The notes beneath the pieces were generated by a model that saw nothing but the letters and a program-made list of their open reading frames with translations, searched no databases and had not been told where the DNA came from. The translations under genes and the position numbers were made by a program. From assembly GCA_016790515.1 (NCBI GenBank), contig JAEUOY010000053.1, forward strand, positions 61,709 to 125,708: a stretch of 64,000 nt of DNA, read 5' to 3'. Shown in pieces: positions 37,124 to 59,476 of this stretch (position 1 is the first letter of the stretch; every line of letters begins with the position of its first letter). Source of the DNA: Burkholderiaceae bacterium (GTDB lineage Bacteria > Pseudomonadota > Gammaproteobacteria > Burkholderiales > Burkholderiaceae_C).

Positions 37124-38602
37124 ATGACCGATCTGGTTCCGACAACGACGCTGGCCCCGCACGGGCCGGTTCGCGCAGCCCGCCGGCTGGCGATGCGGGC
37201 GGCAATGGCCGTTGCACTGGTGTGTTCGCTGCTGCCGCAGGTCGGCTCGGCGCAGGCCAAGGGCGAGCTGCCCGACTTCACCGAGCTGGTCGAGAAGGTC
37301 GGCCCGTCGGTGGTCAACATCCGCACGCTCGAGCGCGGCCCGCGCGGCAGTGCCGCCGGGCCCGGCGGCATCGACCCGAACATGGAGGAATTCTTCCGCC
37401 GCTTCGGCATCCCGCTGCCCGGTGGCCGCGGCGGCCCGCGCGGCGGCGACGACGAGCCGCAGCAGCGCGGCGTCGGCTCGGGCTTCATCCTCAGCGCCGA
37501 CGGCTACGTGATGACCAACGCCCATGTCGTCGACGGTGCCGATGAACTGCTGGTGACGCTGACCGACAAGCGCGAGTTCAAGGCCAAGGTCATCGGTCTG
37601 GACAAGCGCACCGACGTCGCGGTGGTCAAGATCGAGGCCAGCGGCCTGCCGGCGGTGAAGCTGGGCGACGTCAACCGGCTGAAGGTCGGCGAATGGGTGA
37701 TGGCGATCGGCTCGCCCTTCGGGCTGGAGAACAGCGTGACCGCGGGCATCGTCAGCGCCAAGGCGCGCGACACCGGCGACTACCTGCCGTTCATCCAGAC
37801 CGACGTGGCGATCAACCCCGGCAACTCGGGCGGCCCGCTGATCAACCTGCGCGGCGAGGTGGTGGGCATCAACTCGCAGATCTACAGCCGCTCGGGCGGC
37901 TTCATGGGCATCTCGTTCGCGATCCCGATCGACGAGGCCAGCCGCGTCGCCGACCAGCTGCGCACCACCGGCCGGGTCATCCGCGGCCGCATCGGCGTGA
38001 CGATCGCGCCGGTGACCAAGGACGTGGCCGAGTCGATCGGTCTGGGCAAGCCCGCCGGCGCGCTGGTGCGCGGGGTCGAGGGCGGCGGCCCGGCCGACAA
38101 GGCGGGCATCGAGGCCGGCGACATCATCACCAAGGTCGACGGCAAGGTGATCGAGAAGTCGGGCGACCTGCCGCGAATCGTCGGCGCGACCAAGCCCGGA
38201 AGCAAGACCGTGCTGCAGGTCTTCCGCCGCGGCGGCTACCGCGACGTGGCCGTGACGGTGGCCGAGTTCGAGCCCGACGCGCCGACCCGGGTCAGCCAGA
38301 CCGAGCCAGGGGCGTCGGCCCCCGGCAAGACTGCGCTGGGCCTGACGGTCAGCGATCTCAGCGATGCGGCCAGGCGCGAACTCAAGCTGCGTGGCGGCGT
38401 TCGCGTCGATGCGGCCGACGGCGCGGGGGCGCGCGCCGGCCTGCGCGAGGGCGACGTGATCCTCGCGCTCGACAACACCGAGATTGCCGACGCCAAGCAG
38501 TTCATGTCGGTGGCGGCGAAGGTCGAGAAGGCGCGGGCGGTCAGCGTGATGGTGCGCCGCGGCGAGTGGGTCAATTACCTGGTGATCCGCCCGGGCCGCT
38601 GA
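37124..38602 (+). CDS. mucD: Periplasmic serine endoprotease, DegP/MucD family
   Basis: A 492-residue HtrA protease with a signal peptide (hydrophobic stretch near residues 26-44 ending SAQA). The catalytic triad is H134 (TNAHVVDG), D164 (KRTDVAVV) and S235 (NPGNSGGPL). Two PDZ domains follow, at about 285-375 and 395-490, the second ending VNYLVIRPGR. It degrades misfolded periplasmic proteins and is a usual sigma-E target. A 120-bp gap separates it from rseB. Its TGA stop codon is also the first base-triplet of the 79-bp repeat described next. Confidence 0.94.
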   Translation: MTDLVPTTTLAPHGPVRAARRLAMRAAMAVALVCSLLPQVGSAQAKGELPDFTELVEKVGPSVVNIRTLERGPRGSAAGPGGIDPNMEEFFRRFGIPLPGGRGGPRGGDDEPQQRGVGSGFILSADGYVMTNAHVVDGADELLVTLTDKREFKAKVIGLDKRTDVAVVKIEASGLPAVKLGDVNRLKVGEWVMAIGSPFGLENSVTAGIVSAKARDTGDYLPFIQTDVAINPGNSGGPLINLRGEVVGINSQIYSRSGGFMGISFAIPIDEASRVADQLRTTGRVIRGRIGVTIAPVTKDVAESIGLGKPAGALVRGVEGGGPADKAGIEAGDIITKVDGKVIEKSGDLPRIVGATKPGSKTVLQVFRRGGYRDVAVTVAEFEPDAPTRVSQTEPGASAPGKTALGLTVSDLSDAARRELKLRGGVRVDAADGAGARAGLREGDVILALDNTEIADAKQFMSVAAKVEKARAVSVMVRRGEWVNYLVIRPGR

Positions 38603-38771
38603 GCCCGGACCGAGCGAGCACCTGCGTGCTCGCGAGTGCCTGGCGAAGGATCTGCCGGCATGCCCGCCGGCAAGCTCCCGAGCCCGGACCGAGCGAGCAC
38701 CTGCGTGCTCGCGAGTGCCTGGCGAAGGATCTGCCGGCATGCCTGCCGGCAAGCTCCCGAGCCCGGACCGA
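38600..38771 (+). repeat. Tandem 79-bp hairpin repeat starting at the mucD stop codon
   Basis: Copy 1 is 38601-38679, copy 2 is 38680-38758, and a 13-bp start of a third follows at 38759-38771. The two copies differ at one base (38665 C, 38744 T). Each contains a hairpin with 8-bp arms GCGAGCAC / GTGCTCGC and loop CTGC (38614-38633 and 38693-38712). A second hairpin has arms TGCCGGC / GCCGGCA (38653-38672 and its copy). The shared opening TGAGCCCGGAC begins with the mucD stop. A related single copy lies at 58321-58381. The rest of the gap, 38772-39130, shows no gene. Confidence 0.9.
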
Positions 38772-39124
38772 CCCGGCATCCGACTCGAATGGCGGGTCTT
38801 TCCGCATGGCGGGAAATTGGGTCAACCCAACCGAGCCGGGCAGAAGCCTCGGTGGTAGACCAAACGGGATCGGCAAGGCTTCGAAAGTTTGTGTGCACTC
38901 GCTTCGAGCTCGTCGCGAACATCGATCGGCTTTGCCGCCGGCTAGAATTCACCAATGCTGGCAGGCGTTTAGCGCCGCCGTCCGGCCATCGGCGGGAGCC
39001 GCCGCGCAATCGACGGCCGGTGTCGTCAAGCTTGTTGAGAAGCTGTTGATAACTTTCGGCTGTTGGTGCGCTGCAACGAGCCGGTTTCGAGCAACGGCGC
39101 GGCTTCCAGCCCGGTGGATTTGGC

Positions 39125-58301: not shown

Positions 58302-58320
58302 ACGGCCTCACGGCCTCGCA

Positions 58321-58381
58321 GAGCTCGGCCGGTTCGCCAGGCGCAGACCCGTCCGCAGGGACGGTTCCGCGTCCGGGCTCA
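58321..58381 (-). repeat. Single copy of the stop-codon hairpin repeat, with a different stem
   Basis: Read on the minus strand it begins TGAGCCCGGAC, whose TGA is the stop codon of the ABC ATPase gene, as at mucD. A hairpin follows with arms CCGTCC / GGACGG and loop CTGC, then GCCTGGCGAA, and the end GAGCTC. The flanks and loop equal those of the 38.6-kb copies, but the stem sequence is different and still pairs. It fills most of the 77-bp gap between two convergent genes and may serve as a terminator. Confidence 0.75.
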
Positions 58382-59476
58382 CCCACAGTCCAGGACGGGG
58401 GCGCCTTCGCGCTTGTAGGCCACCACGTGGTCGACCTCCAGCCGGATGCCGATGCGCTCGCCGATCGCGTGGTTGTGGTGCGAGGGCACCAGCGACAGCA
58501 CCGTGGTGCCGCTGTCCAGCCGCAGCGTGTAGAGGAACTCGGCGCCGCGGAAGGCCTTGGCCAGCACCTCGGCGGTGACCGGGCTGGCGTCGTCGTGCAC
58601 CACGTCGTCGGGGCGCAGCAGCACGTCGACGCTGCAGCCGGTGTCGCACAGGTCGCCGTGCTCGGTGCAGCGGATCGGCTGCTCGCTCTGCAGCTGCCCG
58701 AGCTCCATCTGGATGTGCTGGCCGCGGCGCACGGTGCCCTGCAGGAAGGCACCCTGGCCGACGAAATCGGCGACGAAGCGGTTGGCCGGCCGGTGGTACA
58801 GGTTGTAGGCGGTGTCCCATTGCTGGATGCGGCCGCTGCTCATGATGCCGATCTCGTCGGCGATCGCGAAGGCCTCATGCTGGTCGTGGGTGACCAGCAG
58901 CGCGGTCGTGCCGGCGGCCTTCAGCAGGCCGCGCAGCTCGCCGCCCAGCCGCTCGCGCAGTTCGATGTCGAGGTTGGAGAAGGGTTCGTCGAGCAGCAGC
59001 AGCCGCGGCGCCGGCGCCAGTGCCCGCGCCAGCGCCACCCGCTGCTGCTGGCCGCCCGACAGCTGGTGCGGGTAGCGCGATCCGGCGCCGCCCAGGCCGA
59101 CGGTGTCGAGCATCTGCTGCACCCGCTGTGCCGCGCCGGGCAGGCCGCGCAACCCGAAGGCGACGTTGGCCGCCACCGTCAGGTGCGGGAACAGCGCATG
59201 GTCCTGGAACACCATGCCGATGCGGCGCTGCTCGGGCGGCAACTGGCGCTGCGCGCTGCTGACCAGCTCGCCGTCGAGCCGGATCTCGCCGGCGCTGACC
59301 GGTTCGAAACCGGCGATCGCCCGCAGCACCGTGGTCTTGCCGCAGCCCGAGGGCCCGAGCAGGCAGCCCACCGTGCCGCGCGGCAGGGTCAGCGAGAAGT
59401 TCTCGACCACGGCGCGCTTGCCGTAGGCCACGGCGATGCCGGCCAGCTGCAGCCAGGGTGGTTCGGCGCTTGTCAT
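58379..59476 (-). CDS. Fe3+-type ABC transporter ATP-binding protein (FbpC-like)
   Basis: A 365-residue ATPase. Walker A is LLGPSGCGKTTVLRAIAG, the Q loop VFQDHALFPHLTVAANVAFG, the signature LSGGQQQRVALARAL, Walker B LLLLDEPFSNLD and the switch LLVTHDQHEAFAIAD. The C-terminal 120 residues form a TOBE/OB regulatory domain (VDVLLRPDDVVHDDASPV). This architecture is that of FbpC/PotA-type importers for Fe3+ or small solutes. Divergent from its probable partner permease; no periplasmic binding protein gene is nearby. Confidence 0.88.
   Translation of the reverse strand: MTSAEPPWLQLAGIAVAYGKRAVVENFSLTLPRGTVGCLLGPSGCGKTTVLRAIAGFEPVSAGEIRLDGELVSSAQRQLPPEQRRIGMVFQDHALFPHLTVAANVAFGLRGLPGAAQRVQQMLDTVGLGGAGSRYPHQLSGGQQQRVALARALAPAPRLLLLDEPFSNLDIELRERLGGELRGLLKAAGTTALLVTHDQHEAFAIADEIGIMSSGRIQQWDTAYNLYHRPANRFVADFVGQGAFLQGTVRRGQHIQMELGQLQSEQPIRCTEHGDLCDTGCSVDVLLRPDDVVHDDASPVTAEVLAKAFRGAEFLYTLRLDSGTTVLSLVPSHHNHAIGERIGIRLEVDHVVAYKREGAPVLDCG

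Follow-up and report, generated by a model that had tools for sequence, protein, structure and literature searches.

Why should a short palindrome recur at the stop codons of unrelated genes, and why should its arms go on pairing while their sequence changes? The question is raised by a repeat at two places in the window (the whole stretch of 64,000 nucleotides that was analyzed), for which a preliminary description had proposed three roles, namely terminator, RNA-stabilizing 3′ element or substrate of a transposase acting on hairpins. When the window sequence was re-read, the feet, the CTGC loop, the inner stem CCGTCC/GGACGG and the strand given there for the copy at 58.3 kb all proved correct, and the two-feet pattern GAGCCCGGAC-N4..30-GCCTGGC was found three times, at 38601-38644 (+), 38680-38723 (+) and 58336-58380 (-), the mean number of matches in 100 dinucleotide shuffles of the window being 0.00 and the largest 0.

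The 58.3-kb copy stands at the end of a gene whose scanned part (58379..59446 (-)) matches the profiles of an ABC transporter ATPase (ABC_tran, TOBE_2). Its left foot, GTGGG (58382..58386 (-)), contains the last sense codon, GGG (Gly), at a position where orthologues of the ATPase mostly have TGC-GGC; the TGA that follows (58379..58381 (-)) is at once the in-frame stop of the gene and the left part of a GA/GA internal loop; and hairpin 1 (58336..58378 (-)) is made of a lower stem, GCC.GG.A.. / ..CC.T.GGC, a variable upper stem and the loop CTGC. The stem is longer than originally described, because pairing extends into the feet, interrupted there by an A bulge and a C.T mismatch. The fold of this copy (L016; z -3.44) is equaled by 2 of 200 shuffles, and the covariance model R1 matches it at 58329-58384 (-) with 73 bits. 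The region of hairpin 2 (58311..58331 (-)) corresponds to CGGCC-GA-GC-TCT-GC-GA-GGCCG, the consensus of 36 copies, from which the pairing favored by the minimum-energy fold of the window copy differs, and immediately after it a second TGA can be read (58308..58310 (-)), a candidate for the original stop of the ATPase gene.

At 38.6 kb the host gene encodes a trypsin-like/PDZ protease (scanned part 37550..38602 (+), ending at TGA 38600-38602); since the profiles give an ABC transporter ATPase in one case and such a protease in the other, the two host genes are indeed unrelated, as had been claimed. Hairpin 1 with its feet (38597..38651 (+); R1, 53.3 bits) is followed by hairpin 2 (38652..38674 (+); CTGCCGGC..GCCGGCAAG, from the fold of L015), by a second copy (38676..38730 (+); R1, 47.7 bits) placed in tandem at 79 nt with 99% identity over the unit, and by a truncated third copy consisting of the first 20 nt (38759..38778 (+); 85%). 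The array is one duplicated 79-nt unit plus this truncated copy, so that its two full copies are not independent; they belong to a different subtype (CGC-TGA...GGATCTGCC) from that of the 58.3-kb copy (GGG-TGA...CCGGCCGAGC).

In general the unit, of ~75-90 nt, comprises hairpin 1 and hairpin 2, with GTGG added in the commonest subtype; some units stand alone and others in tandem, and a further, truncated copy of the left end is often present. For the structural analysis, 113 matches in 100 loci were aligned by fitting to R1, with the omission of four near-identical composites at contig ends of the window's own genome (L024, L025, L026 and L030) and of its locus L035, already inside L032, the weak matches L125 1659-1711 and L155 (reverse strand) being unused; the set for genomic context, taken from the matches listed, consists of 113 + 7 = 120 copies. 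The 18 pairs of the model have 95.9% of their cells paired, double changes in 15 pairs and 430 double-change cells against 107 after shuffling. When three outer pairs are added (21 pairs, 110 distinct copies) 93.6% of cells are paired and there are 481 double-change cells against 123.5, so that the earlier statement that the arms remain paired without keeping their sequence is true over 110 distinct copies. The score of the 21 pairs is 0.532 compared with 0.051-0.082 for slid partners, in an alignment that is biased toward pairing, having been fitted to the model structure, and with controls (column shuffles and slid partners) whose correction for relatedness is incomplete. The three outer pairs, which are absent from the model and include the third base of the last codon and the T of the TGA, are paired in 80.3% of cells with double changes in each, the outermost being broken in 51 of 110 rows. 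Least variable are the GA/GA internal loop, to which the stop codon contributes its GA, the A bulge (kept in 109/113) and the C.T mismatch (T kept in 109/113); the G and A on either side of the foot also vary little, and in the commonest subtype hairpin 2, which contains a second GA/GA, hardly changes from copy to copy (36 copies). Folded singly, most of 10 copies beat their shuffles (z -1.8 to -5.6).

Larger arrangements also occur. A composite repeat on contigs C52 and C169 of the same genome (L004 1-330 and L012, with similar sequence at the contig ends L005-L008) has, in this order, a long outer stem, GTAGGTAAAGGAGGA, a hairpin and the hairpin 1+2 module; its outer stem differs in sequence between the two folded copies and pairs in each (z -8.6 and -7.4), and a version devoid of the hairpin 1+2 module lies at L004 1-60 (reverse strand). 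Directly 5′ of many intergenic copies of hairpin 1 (L102, L099, L108, L033, L132 and others) is found an intergenic repeat of the CCCCCGAAGCGCC..GGCGCTCCCCC type and CCCC[AC]CGTCGCTTCGCTCCTGCCCCCCGAGGGG.

As to the spread of the family, a pattern search of the window's own genome gave 16 match rows at 15 places (0 in the reversed control), and R1, built on 11 copies, detected 24 copies at E<=0.001. The covariance-model search of Burkholderiales genomes called for in the preliminary description returned, under stricter filters, matches in 25 of 60 genomes, distributed among 21/21 of the genus, 3/15 others of the family and 1/24 others of the order, with 1 to 56 matches per genus genome, a count from which these filters may lose weak copies. 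At least 117 stretches match the exact pattern in named genomes; among the matches listed these are mostly from Rubrivivax, Piscinibacter, Ideonella, Roseateles, Aquabacterium, Pelomonas, Paucibacter and Burkholderiales MAGs, the Alcaligenaceae being represented by Castellaniella, Paracandidimonas, Candidimonas, Pusillimonas, Pollutimonas and several Bordetella. R1 was positive in all 13 genomes picked from exact-pattern loci; Castellaniella denitrificans has 46 matches and Paracandidimonas soli 26. Two pattern matches, L200 (Phycisphaerales) and L270 (Polyangiaceae), were dismissed as chance, their inner letters looking unpaired. Plasmids contained no match to a 91-nt query, Rfam gave 0 matches in the window at gathering score and, for six other loci at E<=1, one sub-threshold match elsewhere, and no description of the family was found in the literature searched, subscription papers being largely outside its reach. 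Because the copies within one genome are strongly divergent from each other, no recent burst of this hairpin subtype is apparent.

The placement of the element at stop codons was claimed from the outset to exceed coincidence, and the larger set upholds this: by crude gene calls, the stop of a gene coincides exactly with the element's TGA in 57/120 copies, and under stricter coding filters the codon preceding such a stop is Gly in 41/49 cases against 15/166 in the background (Fisher p 1.7e-23, with orthologous genes counted repeatedly), this codon being preceded by T in 15/49 and 9/166, respectively. Within the exact-pattern set, some of whose copies are also in the first, 27/120 copies among the matches listed are at such stops, 17 of the 27 with Gly. 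Elements at gene ends run in the sense direction and lie immediately behind the last sense codon, preferring (T/G)GG(C/G) followed by TGA; the foot before the variable S base in the 58 gene-end copies is GTGG in 14 and TGGG in 16. About half of the 120 copies lie away from stop codons; a single one is within a called gene, and the remainder are intergenic, some inside larger composite repeats. The gene upstream shares the element's strand in 99/120 and lies on the opposite one in 16, while 4 copies are undecided.

Does the glycine come with the element, or was it there before? Among 16 other genus orthologues of the ABC ATPase, 15 of them with a visible stop, none has an intact element (0/15) and 12/15 have a final Gly. 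The orthologue of genome G011 (L161, G011:C582) reads GGCTGAGTCTGG and then GGGCCGTGGGGTGCG at its stop, which may be a remnant of an element with its middle deleted. Five more genes, named by profile on fragments (ThiS family, SoxY, Rho, acetoacetyl-CoA or 3-ketoacyl reductase, and PilT), provided, read by eye, 14 filled sites, including one diverged variant and one with TAA, and 62 empty ones, every one ending in Gly. Since the 62 element-free orthologues end in Gly too, the target site precedes the element. In the three genes ending in Gly-Gly, GGT stands before the last codon in 9/9 filled and 6/38 empty sites (by eye). The TGATG of the next gene follows the element in 3/3 filled ThiS-family sites, and downstream of the stop the filled site of G020 and the empty one of its sister G017 come back into alignment after ~19 nt. 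No filled and empty pair with identical flanks was found among these sites, and the right end of the element is ragged, differing between copies. We read this as insertion of the element between GGN and TGA, the left foot being either selected in the target or brought in.

In our judgment, the element is probably a REP-like, non-coding mobile palindrome with a preference for (T/G)GG(C/G) before TGA, recognized folded and single-stranded by an enzyme. Insertion would take place in sense orientation directly after the last Gly codon and before the TGA; since the element sits directly after the last sense codon, the C-terminus of the protein is kept and translation ends at the TGA that the element brings. 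By analogy with the action on REPs that is ascribed to HUH Y1 enzymes, the present hairpin may move as a folded single strand, with the GA/GA loop, the A bulge and the C.T mismatch as its fixed marks of recognition, and be joined at GTGG-like feet, a point against which is the occurrence of the exact GTGG in only 14/58 gene-end copies. The enzyme would have been lost, have diverged or be of another kind in this genus, and any effects of the transcribed hairpins on mRNA would be secondary. The more specific picture, in which a hairpin seeks stop codons, enters between Gly codon and TGA, carries the stop within the recognized fold, has a fold that outlasts its sequence and moves with no active RAYT, by means of some other enzyme, is offered tentatively, as a possibility open to real doubt when taken whole. 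If the mobile reading is right, a non-coding element can colonize gene ends cheaply, and even proteins with a conserved C-terminal Gly-Gly, such as SoxY (GGCGG), would tolerate it because target and element both hold the stop.

An unlikely reading, that of selection on an RNA element, would have the stop-codon hairpin protect the 3′ end of the mRNA or bind an RNA-binding protein, its copies being kept as useful. The predominance of same-strand upstream genes and the double changes in the stems agree with it, as do three double paired changes and one one-sided paired change found in the four closest orthologous pairs (L043/L050, L048/L052, L054/L056 and L020/L128); yet the same four pairs, too few for showing constraint after insertion, contain three changes that break pairing. 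Furthermore, this reading explains neither the preference for a Gly codon nor the patchy presence among orthologues, and roughly every second copy lies away from a stop. Were it true, we would be dealing with a widespread 3′-end structure so far unlisted.

If, as we favor, the palindrome is mobile, one candidate for moving it is a RAYT. One protein of the window's genome matches Y1_Tnp weakly, and a RAYT homologue (L001/L376) lies at G000:C20:12533-13222 (-). With the genome's own protein as query, homologues were found in 49/60 genomes and in 21/21 of the genus, so that the impression given by PF01797, a profile that misses divergent RAYT homologues in the genus, that the Y1 gene is missing from several element-rich genomes was wrong. 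This conservation, the head-like GTGG foot adjoining the palindrome and the RAYTs outside the genus, with HxH retained in 11/11 and Tyr in 10/11, are what one would expect if the homologue moved the hairpin as a canonical REP, or did until recently, but we hold this to be distinctly improbable. In fact, in 19 of the 21 genus homologues (L377-L393 and L395 among them) the scored tyrosine, which we take to be the catalytic one, is kept in 0/19 and HxH in 10/19; judged by its sequence, the genus homologue is likely a domesticated or dying Y1 protein. No R1 copy at E<=0.1 was found near Y1/RAYT genes in sets of 8, 22 and 14 loci (usually 1.5 kb each side), and the IS200-like genes of G007 and G014 have no flanking copies. 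Moreover, 12/15 other family genomes have the homologue but lack any R1 match at E<=0.001, in G045 a single weak copy was detected and the search for a homologue found none, and three element-rich Alcaligenaceae have no match to PF01797, a profile that also failed to detect divergent homologues within the genus. The REP-associated Y1 gene whose presence had been suspected thus exists as a conserved homologue, but one unflanked by copies and deprived of its tyrosine in 19/19 genus copies. Because the genus homologues are without Tyr and no R1 copies lie near the tested genes, the moving enzyme was not found among the Y1/RAYT homologues tested; it may be distant or of another kind. If the mobile reading holds, this association of a REP-like family with a degenerate RAYT homologue would be a case in which to study whether such repeats survive their enzyme or exchange it.

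Finally, an intrinsic terminator, to which strong hairpins just 3′ of stop codons might point, is highly improbable, because no T-tract follows the hairpin (TTTT within 15 nt after hairpin 1 in 0/120 copies; 15-45 nt downstream in 1/120), and it would leave the Gly preference and the conserved feet unexplained. Of the three roles originally proposed, it is the substrate in hairpin form that fits best.

Compared with known families, the palindrome is a REP in the broad sense, being short, imperfect and dispersed, with 24 copies in its own genome and 1/120 inside a called gene, and falls below the usual REP abundance of >100 copies per genome with its 1 to 56 per genus genome. The Bor repeats of Bordetella, in the parts of Petrillo et al. 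(2006, PMC1590033; 2008, PMC2267715) considered here, are structured and near coding regions, Bor-1 being 93-117 nt long and intergenic; they occur in the Alcaligenaceae, as does the hairpin family, to which they may be related, and, in a comparison by description only, those parts mention no Gly or stop-codon preference. According to the portion of Nunvar et al. (2010, PMC2817692) drawn upon, Stenotrophomonas REPs have a GT(A/G)G head adjoining an imperfect palindrome and form regularly spaced clusters, usually exceeding 100 copies per genome, and RAYT genes lie between two inverted REPs. The head-like foot beside the palindrome and the regular spacing of clusters are found here too, whereas no tested RAYT gene is flanked, none of 19 genus homologues is intact, copies are fewer and tandem copies are mostly direct rather than alternating. 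The GTAG and CGTC REPs, in the sections of Di Nocera et al. (2013, PMC3733652) considered, are likewise short palindromes with alternative complementary stems that lie mostly 3′ of genes, alone or in clusters; those of the GTAG kind often supply ORFs with their TAG stop, and those of the CGTC kind have no dedicated transposase. The present hairpin, of a Burkholderiales family not named in those sections, differs in the TGA stop inside the palindrome foot after Gly, in its two-hairpin unit and in bearing neither tag at its end (GTAG foot in 0/58 gene-end copies); it is REP-like and stands outside the GTAG, CGTC and RAYT-flanking families as defined.
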